Shown piece after piece: positions 1,272 to 34,146 of a stretch of DNA of 34,788 nt. How positions within the stretch are numbered: the stretch's first letter is position 1; the number at the start of each line of letters is the position of its first letter. The notes under the pieces were generated by a model. That model searched no databases. It was not told where the DNA came from and saw only the letters and a list, made by a program, of their open reading frames with translations. The position numbers were made by a program, and so were the translations under genes. Origin of the DNA: an uncultured Myxococcales bacterium (GTDB lineage Bacteria; Myxococcota_A; Polyangia; Palsa-1104; JAEUJZ01). The stretch spans positions 1-34,788 of the forward strand of contig CALMML010000420.1 in NCBI GenBank assembly GCA_937868485.1. Reading direction: 5' to 3'.

Positions 1272-4200
1272 ATGGGAATCGCGCAGAGACTCCGTAGCCG
1301 CATTCGTCATACCCAGACCAGCTTGATGAATACCGCCAAGCTGATGAGTGGGAATCGCTTCACTGCGCCGTATCACACTCCGTTTCAAGTCGTACTGGAA
1401 ACAGAGACGTATTCCCTTCGTCACTACACGAGCAGTAGGAATCCTTCGGGATCGTGTGTGCTGCTGGTTCCTCCGCTGATGGTGACGGCAGAGATCTATG
1501 ACATGGCACCGGATCTGAGCGCGGTGCTGTGGCTGCTTGCGCAAGGACATGATGTGTGGGGTGTTGACTTTGGGAGTCCACATGCCACACCGCAGGGTCT
1601 GGAAAAGACGCTCACTGATCACGTTGTCGCGGTCAGCTCTGCGGTGGATGAACTGGTGAAGCAGCGCGGCGGATCGGTTCACTTGATTGGCTATTCCCAA
1701 GGTGGAATGTTCATCTATCAAGCGGCTGCGTTCCGTCGCTGTAAGGACATTGCATCGCTCATTACGATGGGCAGTCCGGTGGACATCCTGCGCAACTTTC
1801 CGATTCCTGTTCACAGCGGAGTCCTGTCGAATCTGTTACACGCAGCGGAAGAGTGGGTGCGCGTTCCGCTGGAGAGTCTGCCGTTTCTGCCAGGTTGGAT
1901 CACAAGCTGGGGTTTCAAGCTGCTGAGCCCGCGACAGGAGCTGCGTCACCTGCTGATGATGCTGCGCTTTTTGGATGATGAGGAAGCGCTGAAAAAGCTG
2001 GAGCCGACGCGACGTTTTCTCGGTGGTGAGGGCTTTATTGCGTGGCCAGGTCCTGCGCTGCGAACATTTGTCGATGACTTTGTGGTTCACAACCGGATGA
2101 TGTCTGGTGGCTTTGTGATCGCAGGACAGACTGTGTCGCTTGCGGATCTGTCGGTTCCGATTCTGTACTTTCGCGGCAGTCGCGATGACTTTGCCAGGCC
2201 GCGCAGTGTGTCCGCGATTGAGCGTGTGGTTCCGCATGACGAAGTGTTTGGGCGGACGATTGATGCTGGACACTTGGGTCTGGTGGTGGGAACCAGAGCC
2301 CGTGAGGAAGTCTGGACCACCGTCGACAAATGGCTGGATTATCGGGACCGCAGCGGACCGAAGCCGATGTCGATAGGAAGGCTGCTTCCTATCGGTCACA
2401 GTCCACATCCGACGCCAAATCAGGATGCGAAAGCGGCGGATTCCGCAGGGATGTCGCGCCCAGAATCGGATCAGGAAGCAGAGACAGATCCGCTGAACAT
2501 GCGGGTCTTGTCTGCAGCTCCGCGCGCGCTGTGGCGAAAGGCTGGAGACATTGCGCTGGATGTCACAAGTGGAGCACGCTGGCTGCGCTGGCAGCTTCCG
2601 CGCGTGGTCGATCTGCTGCGCTTTTGGGACAGCGCCCCGATGTCGATGGCAGCGACGCTGGCAGCGCAAGCCAAAGCGATTCCTGATCGAACATTTTTTC
2701 TGTGGGAAGGTCGCGCATATTCCTATGCCGCAGCGGATCGGCGCGTGACCCAGATTGCAGCGGCGCTGTACGCCAGCGGAGTTCGCACCGGACAGACAGT
2801 GGGACTCCTGATGGACAATCATCCCGACTGTCTAACGGCACTGGTTGCGCTCAGTCGCTTGGGTGCGGTTCCGGCTCTGCTCAATCCTTCGACGCGCGGT
2901 GCGGCGCTTCGGCATGCACTGGACGTGACGAAGGTGCGTGATCTGATCGCGCTGTCGAGCAGTTCAGACCTTGCAGAGACGTTCGGTGTACGCAGGCTCT
3001 TGATTGGTGGGGTCGCTGGATCGCAGCGGGATCCTCTGCGTGACAAGGACGCTGTGATCGATCTGGAAGCGATTCATGCGGACTTTCCGTCTTCTGTGCA
3101 GCCAAACGCGGGTCGCGCCAGTGACATCGCCTGCTTGATGTTTACGTCGGGAACCACGGGAAAGCCGAAGGCGGTCAAGATCTCCAATCGACGCTGGCTG
3201 ATGGCTGCGATTGCTGCTAGCTCGGGCTGTGATCTGACGCCAAATGACACGGTGTACTGCTGCCTTCCGCTGCATCACGGAACCGGACTCCTGCTCGCTG
3301 CGGGTGGTGCGCTGCTGGGTGGTTGTCGCTTGGCGATTGCGCCGCGCTTTTCGGTTCGCGGCTTTTGGGAAGACATCCGGCGTAACGGTGTGACCGTGGT
3401 ATTTTACGTCGGAGAGCTGTGTCGTTACTTGGTGTCTGCTCCGCCTTCTCCGCTGGAACGAAGTCACGCGGTTCGGCTGTTTGTGGGCAACGGAATGCGC
3501 GCAGATGTCTGGCGCGAGCTGCTGCGTCGCTTCGGTCGTGTCAGCGTGCTTGAGTTCTACGCAGCGACGGAAGGAAACGCGGTGATGACCAACCTAACCG
3601 GCGAAAAGATCGGCTCGGTGGGTCGGGTTCCGCTTGGACTGGTGCGAACGCTGGTGGTGAAGTATGAACCCGAGACAGAGTCCTATCCGCGCACCCCGGA
3701 TGGATTCCTGATTCCTGCGGAGACCAATCAGCCGGGCATGCTGCTCGTCGAGATTCAGAAACAGAATCCGCTGTCGCGCTTTGATGGCTACACCGATGCA
3801 GCGGCGACCGAAGCGAAGATCCTGCGTAGTGTCTTGCAAGCGGGAGACGCTTGGTTTTGTAGCGGAGATCTGATGCGCGAAGACGAAGACGGAGACTTTT
3901 GGTTCGTCGATCGCGTCGGGGATACCTTTCGCTGGAAAGGCGAAAATGTCTCGACAGAGCAGGTCGCAGCCGTCCTGTCCGAGCTTCCGTTTGTCGAGAT
4001 CTCAACGGTCTACGGGGTGCGCATTGCGGGTCAGGAAGGACGGGCCGGAATGGCTGCGATCAAGCTACGAGAAGGACACTCCTTTGATCCCGCTGCGTTG
4101 TTTGTCTGCGTCGAAAAACACCTGATTGAGGCCGCGCGACCGCGCTTTGTTCGCTTGGTGTTCGATCTGCAAATGACAGAGACGCTGAAGATCCAAAAAC

Positions 4201-4328
4201 AGCCGCTGCTGGCGGACGGAATCGATCTGGGTCGCATCGGCGAGCTGTATGTGTATGACAAGGGCGCGCGCAGCTATCGGAACGTGCAGGAGGAATCGCA
4301 GCTTGAGGCTCTTTTGCCGTCGCTGTAG
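1272..4328 (+). CDS. Lipase-like alpha/beta hydrolase fused to long-chain acyl-CoA synthetase
   Basis: This is a fusion of two enzymes (1018 residues from this start). The N-terminal 360 residues form a PhaC/lipase-like alpha/beta hydrolase with the nucleophile elbow GYSQGG (Ser142), a likely acid in GSRDDFA (Asp305/306) and His334 in DAGHLG. After a linker, the C-terminal half is an ANL adenylating enzyme with the phosphate loop FTSGTTGKPK (624-633), YAATEG (763-768), the SGD motif and DRVGDTFRWKGENVS (880-894), close to FATP-type long-chain acyl-CoA synthetases. By family knowledge the synthetase makes acyl-AMP and then acyl-CoA. The same architecture occurs in mycobacterial Rv1683, tied to triacylglycerol turnover, so coupled release and activation of fatty acids is a reasonable inference. 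The frame is open up to 1164, but the ATG at 1272 has AGGGA ten bases upstream. An earlier ATG lies at 1233. Confidence 0.85.
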   Translation: MGIAQRLRSRIRHTQTSLMNTAKLMSGNRFTAPYHTPFQVVLETETYSLRHYTSSRNPSGSCVLLVPPLMVTAEIYDMAPDLSAVLWLLAQGHDVWGVDFGSPHATPQGLEKTLTDHVVAVSSAVDELVKQRGGSVHLIGYSQGGMFIYQAAAFRRCKDIASLITMGSPVDILRNFPIPVHSGVLSNLLHAAEEWVRVPLESLPFLPGWITSWGFKLLSPRQELRHLLMMLRFLDDEEALKKLEPTRRFLGGEGFIAWPGPALRTFVDDFVVHNRMMSGGFVIAGQTVSLADLSVPILYFRGSRDDFARPRSVSAIERVVPHDEVFGRTIDAGHLGLVVGTRAREEVWTTVDKWLDYRDRSGPKPMSIGRLLPIGHSPHPTPNQDAKAADSAGMSRPESDQEAETDPLNMRVLSAAPRALWRKAGDIALDVTSGARWLRWQLPRVVDLLRFWDSAPMSMAATLAAQAKAIPDRTFFLWEGRAYSYAAADRRVTQIAAALYASGVRTGQTVGLLMDNHPDCLTALVALSRLGAVPALLNPSTRGAALRHALDVTKVRDLIALSSSSDLAETFGVRRLLIGGVAGSQRDPLRDKDAVIDLEAIHADFPSSVQPNAGRASDIACLMFTSGTTGKPKAVKISNRRWLMAAIAASSGCDLTPNDTVYCCLPLHHGTGLLLAAGGALLGGCRLAIAPRFSVRGFWEDIRRNGVTVVFYVGELCRYLVSAPPSPLERSHAVRLFVGNGMRADVWRELLRRFGRVSVLEFYAATEGNAVMTNLTGEKIGSVGRVPLGLVRTLVVKYEPETESYPRTPDGFLIPAETNQPGMLLVEIQKQNPLSRFDGYTDAAATEAKILRSVLQAGDAWFCSGDLMREDEDGDFWFVDRVGDTFRWKGENVSTEQVAAVLSELPFVEISTVYGVRIAGQEGRAGMAAIKLREGHSFDPAALFVCVEKHLIEAARPRFVRLVFDLQMTETLKIQKQPLLADGIDLGRIGELYVYDKGARSYRNVQEESQLEALLPSL

Positions 4329-4364
4329 CGCCATCGTGGTCGTGCTGCGCGGACTGGCTCGGTC

Positions 4365-5717
4365 GTGCTACGATCACTCGTTGTGATGCTGACGATCACG
4401 CTTCCTTTGCAAGTGGCGCTGGGCTGTGTGATGACTCCGCCTGCGACGCCGCCAGCGCTTGTGACCGCAGTGACTGCGCGCTGTATGCAGGATCTGCGTC
4501 AGCCGCTGTGGACGCTACATGATCCAGCGATGGCGGTGCTGACCGCGCAAGGCTCGCTGGCACTTCCCAGTCTGCGCAGCTGTGTGATGACAGAGTCCGT
4601 GGATGAAGCGCGTGCGCGCTGTGTTCGGGCGCTGGGAATGCAAGACGGTGAGGATGTGAAACAGACGATCTTCACGGTGCTTGGCCAGCCTGATCTGACA
4701 GACAGCACGGTGTCTGCGCTCGCGTCGGTGGTGGCCGCCAAAGGACTGCGTGATGCACTGCCTCTGCTTCATCGTTTTGTTCGGGGGGATGACTTCGCAA
4801 GTCACAGTGTGGCGATGGCGATGTTTCAGCTCGATCCGCACGACTATGTGAAGCTTCCTTCTGCGCAGCAAGTGGCCTATGCCGTGGGAATCGCGGACAG
4901 TCCGTTTCTGAAGACACATCGGATGTACTCCGCTGCGTTTGCGAGTACAGCTCCGCGCTTGGCAGAGATCTTGGTCGATCATCTGCGGCTTGGACGGGTG
5001 TCGCTTGCAGGAAAAGAAGTGCTGATGATTCGCTGGCTGCATCTTGTGGGACAGCTGGCCTCGTCGGTGCATGCGAAAGCGGTGCTGGAGATCGCGCTGT
5101 TTGACGGATCGGAAGCGGCGCGCGCATCGGTGCTGGGACTGCTGGCAGAGTGGAACTCTCCCCTTGGCATTCCGCTGGCCGTAGAGATCTTCCGTGATGC
5201 GCTCAGTCAGCCCACGTTTGCGCGATCCGCTGTGATTGATCAGGCGGGGCGTTATCTGCGTCGGCTCAGCGCTGCGCAGCAACCGGACGCGCGGGCGGCG
5301 CTGTCTGCGCTGTGGAAGGAAAGCGGAGCCAGCTCTCCGTTAGGAATCGCAGCAGGAACCGGAGCCTTGGCAGCAGCAGGAGTCCCTGTGCAGATTCCTG
5401 ATCGTGTCCGCAAAGGTGTTCGCTGTCAGCTGGTGTGGTCGTATCGGAGCATGACTCCTACTCCGGCTGCGATCGAGGTGGCGGAGCTTGTGGACTCACC
5501 TTGTGCGCACGATATGACGATTCTGCTCGACACTCCCGATCGGCAGCTGACCGACGGGCTGATTGCGTTTTTGCGCTTTCCGCCCCCGGACCCAGATCTG
5601 TTTACAGCGGCGCGCACGGCGCTGGCGTGGCAGTGCGGAAGACGGCTCAAGCTGTCGATGTGTCGTCACGCAGCGTGGTATCTGCGCGGCGTTCCGCTTC
5701 CGTCTCATCCCGATTAG
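4365..5717 (+). CDS. Putative lipoprotein, helical-repeat (HEAT-like) protein of unknown function
   Basis: The product (450 residues from the GTG start, 443 from the ATG at 4386) begins with a short hydrophobic stretch ending in VALGC. This resembles a lipoprotein signal peptide, although the lipobox is not ideal. The rest is alanine/leucine-rich and predominantly helical, with repeated segments such as [30 protein letters not shown] and [12 protein letters not shown] that look like HEAT-type repeats. I do not recognise a specific family. It starts 36 bases after the lipase/acyl-CoA synthetase gene on the same strand, so the two may be cotranscribed. There is no clear ribosome binding site before either start. 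Membrane attachment is inference. Confidence 0.6.
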
Positions 5718-5739
5718 GAAGCGCTCTTTCTACGTTTGC

Positions 5740-5768
5740 GAAAAACCTGAGGAAGCGCGCGGTTTTTC
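5740..5768 (+). terminator. Possible hairpin terminator after the helical-repeat gene
   Basis: An 8-bp inverted repeat (GAAAAACC at 5740-5747, GGTTTTTC at 5761-5768) encloses a 13-base loop shortly after the upstream stop codon. The right arm supplies a run of five T. The stem is AT-rich on the outer side, which is weak for an intrinsic terminator, so this is tentative. Confidence 0.3.
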
Positions 5769-5794
5769 TTCGCCAGGCTCAAAAGTCGGCAGGG

Positions 5795-5800
5795 TATAAT
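5795..5800 (+). promoter_or_regulatory. Candidate -10 box for the moxR-DUF58-tgpA operon
   Basis: An exact TATAAT hexamer stands in the 185-bp gap before the MoxR gene, just after the possible terminator. No convincing -35 box is seen 16-18 bases upstream, so it may need an activator. TATAAT is rare by chance in this GC-rich region. Confidence 0.4.
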
Positions 5801-5902
5801 GACTTAACCCGTAAGGTCACCTTGGGCTCGACGATAAACACTGTAGGCACCGTCCCAGGTGCAGCTCCGCGCGCGGCGGCAGTCAAGGCTGCGTATTCCA
5901 CG

Positions 5903-6834
<932 letters not shown>

Positions 6835-6838
<4 letters not shown>

Positions 6839-7932
6839 GCCTGCGCTTCCTCACCCGTCTGCGCGGCGTACGCCTGACCCGCGATGGGTGGTGGTTCTGC
6901 ACCGCTGGGATCTGTCTGTTCTTCGTCGCGCTCAACAGTGGAAACAACCTGCTCTATCTGCTGCTGTCGATGCTGATCGCGCTGATGATCGCGTCGCTGG
7001 TGCTGGCTGAAGCGTCGCTGCGCGGAGTCATTCCCAAGCGTCAGCCGCCGCCTCGTCTGCATGCCGGAACGCCGTTTTTGATGGGCATTGCGCTGCGCAA
7101 TGAAAAGCAGAAGCTGCCATCGTTTTCAATCGAAGTAGAAGATCTGTGCGACGACAAAGTGGTGGACAAGCGCTGCTACTTTTTGAAGATTCCGTCGGGA
7201 CGCACGCAGCAGACCGCCTATCGACATACGCTGCCTCGACGCGGACGCTATGTCTTTTCGGCGTTTCGGATTTCGACCAAGTTTCCGTTTGCGCTGTTTC
7301 GTTCGTCGCGCTACGTCGAGCATCGATCCGAGCTGCTGGTCTATCCGGCGCTGATTCAGCTGGAGCACTGGCCCAAAGCGCTGACGCAAGCCGTCGGAGA
7401 TCAGTCGATCTCGCGGCTGGGACGACGTGGCAGCTTTCATGCGCTGCGCGAATATCGCCAAGGTGACGATCCGCGTGAGATTCACTGGCGCAGCTCGGCG
7501 CGTCGTCAGCGACTGATGGTGCGCGAGCATGAGATCGAGGCGGTTCAGCAGGTGACGCTCTATATCGACAACGCGCTTCCCGTCGACAAGCTGCGCGATC
7601 CCGAGGAGCTGGCTAAGCTGGAAAAGGTGATCTCGTGGGGCGCATCGCTCGGCGCGTTTTACCTGGACCATGGCTACGCGGTGCGACTGTGTGTGCGCAG
7701 CGTCGAGCCAGCGCTGCCGCTTTTGTGGAGCCCAGCGAGCCTGCAAAAGCTGCTGACGACGCTGGCTGTGCTTCCGACCGTCGGTCCTGACGTGCCGTTT
7801 CAGACGCCTCCGCCGCTGCCGCGCACTTCTGGCATGCCGATTTCGTCGCACGGCGATAGCTTGGTGGTGATTCGATCGGGCGCGCAGGTTCCGCGTGAAA
7901 AACACATGGGTCACGTCGTGGAGGCGTCATGA
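6835..7932 (+). CDS. DUF58 domain-containing membrane protein
   Basis: The 365-residue product has two hydrophobic segments near the N-terminus (about 20-34 and 38-60), a beta-rich middle, and the DUF58 signature around residues 202-233 ([20 protein letters not shown]). DUF58 proteins are regularly encoded between a MoxR ATPase and a transglutaminase-like membrane protein. The biochemical role is not established; involvement in envelope biology is inferred from partners. Start and stop overlap the neighbouring genes by four bases at both ends, so the three genes form one translationally coupled unit. Confidence 0.9.
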
Positions 7933-10088
7933 GGTTTGCAGCGACGCACAAAGCGGTGTCGTACCTGATGGTCACGACGGCGTTTGTGATGTTGATGCTG
8001 ACCGGCGAGCTGCCGCTGTGGCTGGACGCTGTGACGCTGCTTCTCATCGGTGGTTCGTACTTTTTCGATCCGCAGCAGCATCCGCTGATGCTCGGGCGGG
8101 CGTACAACTATTCGCTGTATGCGCTGGTGACGGTGGTGTCGCTGCTTCTGCTCGGGAATGCGGCGAGCGCGGATGCGTTCTGGGACGGTGGCCTGCGGGT
8201 GCTGTGTCTGCTGCTCGTCTGTAAGCTGTGGCAGCGACGACACAACGGCGATTACTTGCAAGCCTACGTCGTCAGCTTCGTGATGCTACTCGGCGCGACG
8301 TTTGTCGAAAGCAGCATGGTCTACGCGATCCTGTTGTTCGTGTACGTCGTGGCGGTGATCTGGACGCTGACGCTGTTTCATCTTCGTCGCGAGATGGAAG
8401 AAAACTATCTGCTCAAGCACCTGCCGGGCCGTCACGGTCAAGCGGCAGAGAGCGAGCGCGTCGAGGTCGAGCGCATCCTCAACTCGCGTCGCGTCGTCGG
8501 TCCGCCGTTTTTGCTGACGACCGCCGGGGCTGGGCTTGTGACGTTTGTGCTGGCGCTGATCGTGTTTGTGCTGCTGCCGCGCTTTCACGTCACCGTCGAT
8601 CTGCCGTTTCATCGGCGCATGCTGCCCTCGACGGGATTTTCCGATCGCTTGGAGCTGGGCAGTCACGGACTGTTGCGAGACAACCCGCGCGTGGTGATGC
8701 GCGTCGAGCTGCCCGGTCAGCGTCCGCCTGCAAGCCTTCGTCTGCGCGGCGTTTCGTTTGCGCACTATCACCACGGTCGCTGGACACAGAAGCGTCAGGG
8801 CGAGCAGCTTCTGACGGTGCAGCATGGCGTCGCGGCGATGGATGCAAGTGGCGTGGACTCCGTACGTGGTCGGGTTCAGCGCGCTGAGGTGTATCTGGAG
8901 CCGCTCGATGCCGATGCTCTGTTTACGCCTTCGCCGGGCAAGACGCTGTCGCTGCTGCTTCCCGAGTCGTTTGGTGGGCTGTCGGGGCTCCAGCTGGCGA
9001 CGACCAGCGACGGACAGGTCGTGGCGCATGGACGACGCTCGCCGCTGCATTACACCGTGCTGTCGCTGCCCGACGTGCTGTCCGATTCGCAGACGGACGA
9101 TGTCGCGCTGTATCGCGAGCTGTCACCGGAGCTGCGTCTTCGGCTGCGCTCACTGGCGCTACAGATCGTCGGAGATGCCAATTCCAGCGCCGAGCGCGCC
9201 GAGCGGCTGAGTCGCTATCTTTCGCAGAACTTTGCCTACACCACGCGGCTGTGGAAGCCGTCGCAGGAAGAGCCGCTGTTTGACTTTTTGCTGACGGAAA
9301 AGCGCGGACACTGTGAATACTTTGCGACGGCGCTGGCGGTGCTCTTGCGCAGCCTCGATATCCCGAGTCGCACCGTCAACGGCTACCTAACCGCCGAGTG
9401 GAACAGCTTTGGCCAGTTCTTCGTCGTCCGTCAGCAGCACGCGCACTCGTGGGTCGAAGCGCAGCTGCCGGGACAAGGCTGGGTGATCTTCGATCCGACG
9501 CCGCCGCAGAACAGCTCGCCGCGCCTGCCGGTGCTGTTTAAGCTTCGTCAGTTCTTCGACGGGCTGGACATGGACTTTGGCAAGTATGTGCTGGAATACG
9601 ATGTTCTGGCGCAGCAGCGTCTGAGCGATCGGATGTCGTCGCTGTTTCCTCGCAAAGCCCAGCCGGGCCGCGCCGCGAGTCCAGATTCCGACGTGCAGCT
9701 GGCGAGCTGGCGACGGATTGCGGTGATGCTGCTCGGGCTGACGACGCTGGCTGTGCTGTTGTGGCTGGTGCTGCGACGGCTGCGAACCGCGCAGGTACAG
9801 CCATCGCGCGATGTGACCGAGGGAAAAGGACTGCTCCGGCAGGCGCTGGTGACGCTCCGAAGGCGCGGCTTTGTGCGAGGGCAGGGCGAGACGCTCCAGA
9901 TGCTGTCGCAGCGGCTTGTGGATGCGAGCGATCCGTGTGCGCCGCCGTTTGCCAAGCTCGTCGAGCTGTACTACGCGCACCGCTTCGGCGACCTGCCCCT
10001 CGATCGCGTCGAGGTAAGCAGGCTGCTTCGAGAGATCGTGACGCTGGCCAAGCAGCATCCTCCGCGCGCGTCGTCGTTACCGAGTTAG
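7929..10088 (+). CDS. TgpA-like transglutaminase domain membrane protein (DUF3488/DUF4129)
   Basis: The 719-residue protein begins with several transmembrane helices (first 190 residues), followed by a soluble region and a transglutaminase-like core. The predicted triad is visible: Cys462 in KRGHCEYFA, His506 in QHAHSWVEA and Asp522 in VIFDPTP. A last membrane helix (about 597-619) and a cytoplasmic DUF4129-like tail complete the TgpA layout (DUF3488-transglutaminase-DUF4129). Pseudomonas TgpA is an inner-membrane protein with a periplasmic catalytic domain; its physiological substrate is unclear. It is the last gene of the MoxR-DUF58 operon and starts at an ATGA overlap. Its 3' end overlaps that of the convergent ettA gene by 12 bases. 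Confidence 0.9.
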
Positions 10089-30369: not shown

Positions 30370-33300
30370 ATGTCCGGTTCGACACCCGGTAATGCTCGTT
30401 TGGCGCTCTTGCGTGTTCCGAAGCTTGCTTGGCGACGGGTCGCTGCGATCCTCGGCGTAAGCTTCATCGTTGCCTGTAGCAGCAGCGGTGGCAGTGGCGG
30501 CTGCGGCGGACTCACCAAGCTCTCTGGTGGATATCCCGTCGACAAACGCATCGACAACGCGGTTCAGCTTCGCATCACCAAGGGCTTTTTCGACTTCCTG
30601 GAAACCAACGGCAAAGCGCTGGTCGATAAGTTCTTGCCGTCGGGCGGAGAGATCGCCGTTCCGTCGAGCTGCGGCGGTGACACCGAGATCTGCTGCGGCC
30701 AGATGTGCAAGGTCAAGCTGGAGTATTCCTCGCTGAAGTTTGAGCCGACCCCGCCGACGACGACGAAAGCGACGCTGCGGGCCAAGATCAAGACGATGGA
30801 GGACTTCAAGATCAAGACCAAGGCGGGCTTTGTCACCATCGACTGCAAGCTGTCGCTCGACACCGCGCGCAAGGGCAAGCAAGACGTTGGCATCACGATG
30901 GCTGCCGTCGCCAACGTCAGCGCCGCGACCAAGCTGACCAGCATCGACTTCGACGACAAGAGCGTCGACATCCTGGATCTGGACAGCGACGACATCGACA
31001 TCAAAGGCAACATCCTGTGCGGCACGGTGAACCTGCTCAAGGGCCTGTTCATCGGTCAGCTCAAGGATCAGCTGAAAAAGCAGCTGGCGGGTCCGCTCGA
31101 CTCGGTGCTGTGTCAAAAGTGCGCTGCGAAGACGGACTGTTCGTCGCTGGCCAATCAAGGCTGCGTCAACAACTTCTGTATGCGCGACGGAACGTGCCTT
31201 CAGCTGCTCGGTCTGGAAGGAAGGATGGATCTGGGGAGCTCGCTCGGACCGTTTTCCCCGGCGGCCAAGGCAGCTGGCATTGACATGATCGTCGCTGCGG
31301 GTAACTACGCGACGGTGGAAGCGCTGCCAAACGCAGGTCTGTCGATGGGCATGCTCGGTGGAACCAGCTCGTCGGCGAGCAGTGCTTGTGTGCCGCGTCG
31401 TCCGGCTCCGACGGGACCAGCACCGGGCAAGAGCACCGCGTTTGCGGGCAACACCGCGCCGAACGGCAAGCCGTATCACGTCGGTGCGGGCATCTCGACG
31501 CTGGAGCTGAACTCGCTTGGCTACACGCTGTATGACACCGGCGGTCTGTGCTTGGATGTTGGCTCGGCGCAAGTCGAGATGCTGTCGTCGGGCCTTCTGT
31601 CGGCGCTGATTCCGTCGATCAACGACCTGACGCGCGGGGTGAACTCGGCGATCAAGATCGTCGGACGTCCGCAGCAGCCACCGACGTTTGTGCTCGGCAA
31701 AGGAACCTACAAGACCGACGCGATGGGCAAAAAGATCATCGACGATCCGCTGCTGCATCTGGTGGTGAAGGACATGGCGCTCGACTTCTACGTGTTCCTC
31801 GACGAGCGGTATGTGCGCTTTATGCGTCAGACGGTGGATCTGGATCTGCCCGTCGGTCTGGATGTCGATGCGATGAGCCAGATCGTTCCGGTGCTCGGAG
31901 ACATTGGCCAAGCCGTCGGAAATGTTCGTGTCACCGATAGCGCGCTGCTCAAGGAATCGCCGACGCAGCTTGCGCGCCTGTTCCCGAGCCTTTTGCCGGT
32001 TTTGGCGGGCTCGCTGTCGTCGCTGGACCCGATCAAGCTGCCGGACATCATGGGCCTTCAGCTTTCCCCGATTCAAATCACCAGCACCGCCGATACCACC
32101 GGCAAGCTGTCGCTGCTTGGACTGTTCTTGTCGATCAAGCTGTCGACGATGCCGCTGGCAGGAGAAGACATGACGCTACTTGCGCAAGGAACCGACGAGC
32201 CGACTGAGACTTTTGCCCAGCTTGAGTCCGTGACGGTACCGGCGGCGGAAGCACTGGCTGTGACCGCCGAGGTTCAGCAGTCGACCCGCGTCGTGGTCCG
32301 TGTGGATGCCAGCAGCCACGTAAGCGGCGATCGCGAGTGGCAGTACCGCATCGACGGTGGCTTCTGGCGACCGTTTGACAACCAGCACCAGATCATCATC
32401 GAGGAGCCGGAGCTTCGTCTCGCTGGCAAGCACAACATCGAAGTGCGCGCGCGCGTCGCGGGTCAGCCTGGAACGCTCGATCCCAGCCCGGCCAAGCTGG
32501 AGTTTACGGTCGAGCCCGTCGCCAGCAGTGCAAAGGTTTCGCCGTCAGCGAAGGCCAAGTCGGTCCGTTCTGCGTCGCAGGTGGAACAAGTGACGGACGC
32601 GGCGACGGGCTGCTCGATGAGCCGTGCAGAGACGGGACGCGGCACGCTGATTGCGGTGCTGATGCTGCTCGTCGGACTGTTGTCGCGACGCCGACTCGCG
32701 CAGGTTGGAACGCTGCTGCTCGTCGGTCTGGTGGGCGTGAGCGGCTGCAACAAGACCAGCGATGGCAACGGCACCGACGGTGACATGACGCCGGGTGAAG
32801 TGAAGAAGCCCAAGATCGAGTTTGCGCCGAACGACGAGATGGGTCGCTATCAGAGCGTCGCAGTCTCGTCGGACAAGCTGATGATCAGCGCCTACAACGC
32901 GACGTTTGGGGATCTGGCGTTTACCGAGATGACGATGCCGAGCAACCAGTCGACGTGGCTGCCGGTCGATGGACTTCCGACGGGAGATCCCGACAGCACC
33001 GATCCTGCCGCGTATCGCAGCGGGTATGCCGATGCGGCGGACGATGTCGGTCGCTTCACGTCGCTCCAGATCAAGCAAAGTGGCAATCCGCTCGTCGCGT
33101 ACCAGGATGTGACCAACAGCGCGCTCAAGCTGGCGACCCGCAGCGGCGACAAGTGGAGCACGCTGGTCGTCGCTGATTCGAGCGAAGGGCAGGGCGTTGG
33201 CTCGTTTGCTCAGCTTCTGCTCGACGGCAGCGATCTGGCGACGGTGTCGTACATGATCGCTGGCGCCAAGAAGATGGACGGCAAGGTGTTTGCGCAGCTT

Positions 33301-34146
33301 GTCGTCGCGCAGGCTTCCGGCGCAGAGCCGCAGAGCGGTGCCGACTTCACCAAGAAAGTCGTCGAGGAAGTACAGGTTTCGTGCGCCGGTCTGTGCGGCA
33401 GCGGCGAAGCCTGCGTCTACGTCGATCCGGCGGTCAAAGACAAGCTCAAGACCGTCTGCAAAAAGAATGAGTCGAGCTGCACCCCAAGCTGCAAGAGCGC
33501 GCAGGCTTGCGTCGCTGGCAAGTGTGTCGATGCCCTGAGCACCCCGGCGCTGGATCTGCCGCAAGGCACCGGTCTGTTTGCGCGCCTGGTCCAAGGCTCA
33601 AGCGGCAAGTTCGTGGTGTTCTACAACCGCTCGACGGGCGCGCTGAAGATGGCGAACCTGGCGGACTGGAAGGTCACGACGATCGAGGGCGGCGACGGCA
33701 AAGTCGATACGGGTCGTCACATTGGCGCGGCGGTGGGTCCAGACGGAACGCTGCACATTGCGTACTCAAACAGCGACGGGCAGCTCTACTATCGCAACGT
33801 CAAGGGAACCACCGTCAGCAAGGCCGAGCTGGTCGACGATGGCAACCGAGGCACTGCGATGGTGACGGACTATCACCAAGTGGGCGCGGGCGCGACGCTC
33901 ATCGTCGACGATGTTGGTCCGGTGATTGCGTATCAGGACTCGACGGCGGGCACGCTGGAAGTTGCTCGCAAGGTGGCGTCGTGGAGCCGCAAGACGGTCG
34001 GCGCTGAGCCCGGAATCAACCGAGGCTACTACCCGCAGATCTTCAAGTTCGGTGGCAAGTGGTGGGTGTCCGACGTGGTCTATGACCGTGCGGCGGACGC
34101 GCTCAGCTCGCTGCGCTTTACCGACCTGTCGACGACCACGCCGTAG
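30370..34146 (+). CDS. Large lipoprotein, apparent fusion of two surface proteins
   Basis: The ATG follows GGAGGTAGCC, a near-perfect ribosome binding site, giving 1258 residues. A signal peptide ends in the lipobox FIVAC and is followed by a Ser/Gly-rich tether. Part one (to about 745) is a beta/alpha domain protein of unknown family with many cysteines (CCGQMCKVKL, CQKCAAKTDCSS) and a late Ig-like segment (REWQYRIDGGFWRPFD). It closes with GCSMSRAETG, a hydrophobic stretch and RRR (748-775), very like a MYXO-CTERM anchor. Directly after, LAQVGTLLLVGLVGVSGC (776-793) is a second lipoprotein signal. Part two resembles a beta-propeller with a Cys-rich insert (CKSAQACVAGKCV). A TTG at 32680 or ATG at 32662 could start part two separately. 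The function is unknown. Confidence 0.8.
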   Translation: MSGSTPGNARLALLRVPKLAWRRVAAILGVSFIVACSSSGGSGGCGGLTKLSGGYPVDKRIDNAVQLRITKGFFDFLETNGKALVDKFLPSGGEIAVPSSCGGDTEICCGQMCKVKLEYSSLKFEPTPPTTTKATLRAKIKTMEDFKIKTKAGFVTIDCKLSLDTARKGKQDVGITMAAVANVSAATKLTSIDFDDKSVDILDLDSDDIDIKGNILCGTVNLLKGLFIGQLKDQLKKQLAGPLDSVLCQKCAAKTDCSSLANQGCVNNFCMRDGTCLQLLGLEGRMDLGSSLGPFSPAAKAAGIDMIVAAGNYATVEALPNAGLSMGMLGGTSSSASSACVPRRPAPTGPAPGKSTAFAGNTAPNGKPYHVGAGISTLELNSLGYTLYDTGGLCLDVGSAQVEMLSSGLLSALIPSINDLTRGVNSAIKIVGRPQQPPTFVLGKGTYKTDAMGKKIIDDPLLHLVVKDMALDFYVFLDERYVRFMRQTVDLDLPVGLDVDAMSQIVPVLGDIGQAVGNVRVTDSALLKESPTQLARLFPSLLPVLAGSLSSLDPIKLPDIMGLQLSPIQITSTADTTGKLSLLGLFLSIKLSTMPLAGEDMTLLAQGTDEPTETFAQLESVTVPAAEALAVTAEVQQSTRVVVRVDASSHVSGDREWQYRIDGGFWRPFDNQHQIIIEEPELRLAGKHNIEVRARVAGQPGTLDPSPAKLEFTVEPVASSAKVSPSAKAKSVRSASQVEQVTDAATGCSMSRAETGRGTLIAVLMLLVGLLSRRRLAQVGTLLLVGLVGVSGCNKTSDGNGTDGDMTPGEVKKPKIEFAPNDEMGRYQSVAVSSDKLMISAYNATFGDLAFTEMTMPSNQSTWLPVDGLPTGDPDSTDPAAYRSGYADAADDVGRFTSLQIKQSGNPLVAYQDVTNSALKLATRSGDKWSTLVVADSSEGQGVGSFAQLLLDGSDLATVSYMIAGAKKMDGKVFAQLVVAQASGAEPQSGADFTKKVVEEVQVSCAGLCGSGEACVYVDPAVKDKLKTVCKKNESSCTPSCKSAQACVAGKCVDALSTPALDLPQGTGLFARLVQGSSGKFVVFYNRSTGALKMANLADWKVTTIEGGDGKVDTGRHIGAAVGPDGTLHIAYSNSDGQLYYRNVKGTTVSKAELVDDGNRGTAMVTDYHQVGAGATLIVDDVGPVIAYQDSTAGTLEVARKVASWSRKTVGAEPGINRGYYPQIFKFGGKWWVSDVVYDRAADALSSLRFTDLSTTTP

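Follow-up and report, generated by a model that had tools for sequence, protein, structure and literature searches.

A conserved fused precursor in Myxococcota, with MYXO-CTERM-like and lipoprotein signals back to back, as a candidate envelope polyprotein

The window, the whole stretch of 34,788 nucleotides analysed here, derives from an uncultured Myxococcales bacterium whose genome is a draft assembly of 6.36 Mb in 514 contigs. It carries a gene for a fused precursor (30370..34146, +) in which a likely ATG start at 30370 opens a frame of 1258 residues, closed by a stop codon at 34144-34146; homologous fused frames number 113. From its N terminus the protein has a lipoprotein signal and a long half predicted to be extracytoplasmic, then a MYXO-CTERM-like segment, a second lipoprotein signal and an all-beta half. 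Elsewhere in the window (5435-10088) lies a compact operon, unrelated to the fused gene, of a MoxR-like AAA ATPase, a DUF58 protein and a TgpA-type transglutaminase.

With its start at ATG 30370, the protein itself also opens with a lipoprotein signal, which the first-pass annotation had missed. This signal peptide (residues 1–35; 30370..30474, +) has the lipobox FIVA/C, residues 1–36 reading MSGSTPGNARLALLRVPKLAWRRVAAILGVSFIVAC, and a lipobox-like signal is found in 102 of the 103 homologues with a complete N terminus. Cys36 (30475..30477, +), the predicted lipidated N terminus of the N-half, is invariant in an alignment of 47 full-length homologues (A1; about 30% identity to the window protein), partly by construction, since this residue helped to decide which start codon was chosen.

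The junction between the two halves lies within the same uninterrupted frame, in which 32605-32694 encodes TGCSMSRAETGRGTLIAVLMLLVGLLSRRR and is followed directly by LAQVGTLLLVGLVGVSGC (32695-32748); GC3 is even over the junction (0.80 for residues 740–800). The first of these segments (32605..32694, +) is a MYXO-CTERM-like signal composed of a GC motif, a transmembrane helix (TM1) and RRR. Its sequence, GCSMSR...TLIAVLMLLVGLLSRRR, fits the MYXO-CTERM pattern of Cys motif, transmembrane helix and Arg cluster, and scores 15.0 bits with TIGR03901, under the 20-bit cut-off of that model; of 97 homologous junctions, the model picks up 77 at E<=0.1, the strongest at 9e-10. Cys748 (32611..32613, +), the predicted site of lipidation and myxosortase cleavage, is conserved in at least 90% of A1, as is Arg773. 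The RRR cluster (residues 773–775; 32686..32694, +) is predicted from Arg773 conservation, loop charge and the position of split sites to be cytoplasmic and shared, closing TM1 as a stop-transfer element and at once providing the second signal with its n-region. The h-region and lipobox (VSG/C) of this internal lipoprotein signal follow at 32695..32745 (+), a lipobox-type signal being present in 113 of 113 fused homologues. They lead to Cys793 (32746..32748, +), the predicted lipidated N terminus of the C-half, which is invariant in A1.

Residues 1–36 and 773–793 both fit the SPII pattern of positive n-region, h-region and lipobox with Cys. The second lipoprotein signal is internal in the fused protein and N-terminal in split orthologues; conversely, the MYXO-CTERM segment is followed by 483 residues in the fused protein and is terminal in split and N-only orthologues. 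Among the 25 MYXO-CTERM matches inspected in the same genome, a stop follows within 13 residues in 23 and within 41 residues in one doubtful case, and the window gene, with its 483 residues, is the sole one with a long extension. The earlier description of this locus as a MYXO-CTERM-like anchor running at once into a lipoprotein signal in one frame is borne out by the sequence and by all 113 fused homologues.

Profile comparison makes a BPI-like double TULIP domain the probable identity of the N-half (30475..32245, +; boundaries approximate). Profile A2 of this half matches human BPI (1bp1/1ewf) with an overall E value of 3.5e-5 in two collinear stretches, each weak alone, which correspond in order to TULIP-N and TULIP-C. 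Paired motifs include vRvtqsGLdfl with VRISQKGLDYA of BPI, and vGiGvseefLd with LGLSDYFFNTA. Single members match the Pfam LBP_BPI_CETP N and C families and JHBP, all of them TULIP families (best E 2.8e-4, PF01273). No member tested passes the Pfam gathering score for BPI/LBP/CETP, none exceeding the cut-off in six genomes; membership of that family is therefore likely, but unproven. No Pfam or NCBIfam model scored over cut-off with the window protein, and the AlphaFold2 model of the N-half, built from a single sequence, has a pLDDT of 35.6, too low for use. The fold alone would suggest that this half takes part in handling lipids at the cell envelope.

The C-half (32746..34143, +) is an all-beta domain, probably a beta-propeller. 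This assignment draws on a weak BNR_4 match in one member, on a consensus with repeated YxDxT/ALKxA motifs and on a low-confidence, all-beta AlphaFold2 model from two sequences (pLDDT 34.5). Two other candidates were set aside: a WWE match, sub-threshold and rare among homologues, was attributed to chance, and the PDB matches of the C-half profile, which are designed TIM barrels, were taken as spurious. One family (f32; L151, L154 and L184) has a second C-half-like protein with its own lipoprotein-like N terminus directly downstream of the fused gene.

Matches to the protein were found in 57 genomes when 96 relatives were searched, and then in 148 when 284 genomes of the phylum were covered. 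Of 132 loci read in detail, 113 have both halves in one frame, and each of these shows the same junction of TM1, a basic loop and a second transmembrane segment (TM2) ending in a small residue and Cys; five of the 113 frames were missed by the parser and checked by eye, and L098 and L123 were left out as frameshifted copies. The identical arrangement in 113 of 113 fused homologues places the junction far beyond chance. The MYXO-CTERM Cys is kept in 112 of them and the basic cluster in all, the net charge of the loop being positive in 108 of 108. A1 contains 17 invariant columns, Cys793 and Cys36 among them; it is the source of the evidence on cysteine invariance, because in A5 and at the termini of A2 and A3 the cysteines are invariant through the way those alignments were built. 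Between the conserved Cys and Arg points residues vary and hydrophobicity stays, and divergence is fastest just before the junction (38% of residues 701–745 changed relative to L003, against 5% in the N-half), a combination that is the pattern of processed signals and unlike that expected of a structural hairpin.

L093 (G051), alone among the fused homologues in lacking the MYXO-CTERM Cys, keeps the lipobox and sits on a long branch; its genome still encodes a myxosortase, as well as another paralogue, L094, of normal form. In five families (L211, L216, L217, L220, L223, L224 and L228) an unclassified lipoprotein of ~340 residues precedes the fused gene on the same strand, and in most of these a PfkB kinase and a nucleoside-phosphorylase-like gene stand before it. 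The window does not have this neighbourhood.

Looking for orthologues encoded as two separate genes, as the first-pass annotation had proposed, gave a divided result: split, N-only and C-only loci do occur and are rare, whereas the form found in 113 frames is the fused one. In the split orthologues the break always falls within the cytoplasmic Arg loop, as a TGATG overlap (L080), an ATGA overlap (L092), a GTG overlap (L206) or an 18-nt gap (L159). The N-only genes L090, L156 and L210 end in a true terminal MYXO-CTERM, and the C-only gene L111 starts as an ordinary lipoprotein, MRSPRRLLSSSLVGLFVGLIAAC. Since nature has split the gene in this loop, the parts work as two proteins. When the six scored split or N-only rows were placed on a tree of 121 N-halves, six changes were needed to account for them, so that they represent separate events nested in fused clades; the fused form is likely to be the ancestral state.

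The enzymes that the two signals call for are encoded in the same genome. A myxosortase gene at 19710-20381 of contig C112 scores 100.6 bits with Mrt_core (cut-off 100), LspA and Lgt are both present, and a myxosortase exceeds the cut-off in 14 of 14 relatives tested. MrtX cleaves TraA at its MYXO-CTERM in a Cys-dependent manner, both in M. xanthus and in E. coli (PMC11980579). In one genome (G046, contig C123) a myxosortase gene diverges from the N-only BPI-like gene L090 with its terminal MYXO-CTERM, about 110 bp apart (2545-5010, -, and 5121-5930, +), an adjacency that links the enzyme with a probable substrate. The window genome has two Lgt genes (C254:10026-10904 and C382:18130-18897), of which one adjoins LspA and the other lies about 2 kb from a MYXO-CTERM gene, and relatives contain up to 8 Lgt matches. 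It may be an additional Lgt that lipidates the cysteines of MYXO-CTERM signals.

Taken as a whole, the architecture probably encodes one precursor that gives rise to two separate lipid-anchored envelope proteins, the hairpin between them being cut out by myxosortase and LspA. The first lipoprotein signal would start export and yield a lipidated N terminus, and the N-half, a probable BPI-like lipid-binding TULIP, would cross the membrane until the MYXO-CTERM helix halts transfer with RRR still on the cytoplasmic side. This Arg cluster would then double as n-region of the second lipoprotein signal and export of the C-half would restart, so that the chain would thread out, in and out again. Cleavage by myxosortase at Cys748 and by signal peptidase II (LspA) before Cys793 would therefore remove the intervening hairpin. 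The predicted products, possibly located at the cell surface and made in 1:1 ratio, are the N-half, held by an anchor at each end, and the C-half as a lipoprotein. This scheme assumes that Lgt, LspA and myxosortase can act on signals within a polytopic precursor. Counting against it are the MYXO-CTERM score of the window protein, which lies under the cut-off, and L093, which has no MYXO Cys in a genome with a myxosortase; the conserved cysteines could also carry lipid while one of the two sites stays uncut. The earlier suggestion that envelope proteases cut the polypeptide in its middle to give two anchored proteins thus gains support from both conserved cysteines, from orthologues split in the loop and from the presence of the enzymes.

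Four other accounts of the junction have to be weighed. The precursor might stay uncleaved as a two-domain membrane protein, with the junction as a helical hairpin holding both extracytoplasmic halves in the inner membrane. The continuous conserved frame would suit this, and a basic-loop hairpin is a legitimate anchor; however, such a hairpin needs neither a Cys before TM1 nor an invariant Cys in lipobox context at the end of TM2, the transmembrane residues are free to vary while the cysteines stay, and the split orthologues are separately anchored proteins. We consider this account unlikely. A finding named beforehand as adverse, namely continuous orthologues in which the junction is a simple transmembrane pair, was encountered in its first part only: the orthologues are continuous, but the junction is no simple pair, because both signal cysteines are kept. 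A single cut, by LspA or myxosortase alone, would leave one half with a transmembrane anchor. It agrees with the low MYXO-CTERM score of the window protein and with L093, which lacks the MYXO Cys but has a lipobox, and cleavage of the second signal would by itself separate the halves. The near-universal MYXO Cys (absent from a single fused homologue) and the ordinary terminal MYXO-CTERM signals of N-only orthologues speak against it, and it appears quite improbable.

Translation might also begin within the gene, for instance at TTG 32680 (32680..32682, +), and yield the C-half as a second product, the in-frame overlap being incidental. This codon, which the first-pass annotation put forward as an ideal lipoprotein start, would yield MSRRRLAQVGTLLLVGLVGVSGC, a good lipoprotein signal. 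It is, however, CTC in L003 and CTG in L004, the nearest relatives, and has no Shine-Dalgarno-like sequence. Loop starts occur at about chance frequency: of 108 genes, 37 have an ATG in the loop (31 would be expected, judging by other regions of these genes) and 2 have a start with a Shine-Dalgarno-like sequence (5.6 expected). The junction shows no excess of conservation at synonymous sites over other regions, and the open frame is retained across the phylum, which makes an internal start very improbable. An assembly error, for which the draft state of the assembly (514 contigs) could be invoked, or a recent loss of the stop codon between two genes, both raised at the outset, has practically no likelihood. 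The same fused frame occurs in a related MAG contig (L002; 88% identity over the downstream part), at 113 loci and in the single-contig genomes G254, G228, G167 and G102. Its presence in single-contig genomes and across the phylum excludes an assembly error, and a fusion that is phylum-wide and apparently ancestral does not stem from two adjacent genes that lately lost a stop; a sequencing error at the junction was likewise ruled out by L002 and the 113 homologues.

Processing of one precursor into two lipid-anchored proteins is therefore the reading preferred here. In its wider form, which we hold to be somewhat better than evenly likely, the family represents an ancient, phylum-wide class of envelope polyprotein, in which two unrelated intramembrane proteases acting on lipid-modified Cys excise an intramembrane hairpin and leave a doubly tethered BPI-like protein and a partner lipoprotein in 1:1 ratio. 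If this is true, lipoprotein and sortase-like signals work back to back in one chain and 'C-terminal' or 'N-terminal' anchors need not be terminal, so that annotation expecting anchors at protein ends misreads such proteins. The family would also provide a natural substrate for assaying myxosortase and LspA on one polypeptide, and a test of the lipidation of the MYXO-CTERM Cys, a step to which work on myxosortase assigned no known enzyme. As a bacterial TULIP family of BPI-like type, it may, in addition, be relevant to how eukaryotic lipid-transfer proteins and TULIPs arose.

A conserved phylum-wide junction of MYXO-CTERM and lipobox was not found in the literature searched, the founding myxosortase survey aside, and searches on bacterial polyproteins and on midcut/XrtH yielded nothing pertinent. 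Internal MYXO-CTERM signals have been described as rare, and for one of them, in MXAN_5598 of Myxococcus xanthus, cleavage was proposed, together with a possible two-gene fusion (PMC11980579). MXAN_5598 resembles the window protein in having a MYXO-CTERM in the middle of the ORF and an N-terminal part proposed to be processed and anchored. It differs in that an adhesin stands before an outer-membrane beta-barrel and OmpA domains, as a single case in one genome (PMC11980579), whereas the window family has a lipoprotein signal directly after the MYXO-CTERM, BPI-like and all-beta halves and a phylum-wide, apparently ancestral fusion. In TraA and TraB, too, a MYXO-CTERM protein is directly followed by another exported component of its pathway, but the two are separate overlapping ORFs (PMC11980579), an arrangement like that of the rare split orthologues. 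The midcut-by-XrtH proteins (NCBIfam NF033207), judged by the name of the model, share a sorting signal cut in mid-protein, but belong to an exosortase system; NF033207 weakly matches 5 of 97 junctions. FbcH, the cytochrome b/c1 precursor of Bradyrhizobium, is a bacterial envelope polyprotein that signal peptidase divides at an internal signal, by one type I cut after a polytopic protein, in contrast to the two lipid-linked signals back to back of the window family. As for the N-half, the lipid-binding fold is known in bacteria from the TULIP families YceB, P47, OrfX2, DUF4403, DUF2140 and DUF2993, of which YceB has an N-terminal lipoprotein-type location (PMC6791001). The window family, which is not named in that survey (PMC6791001), differs from the families surveyed in that its profile matches BPI itself over both TULIP domains.
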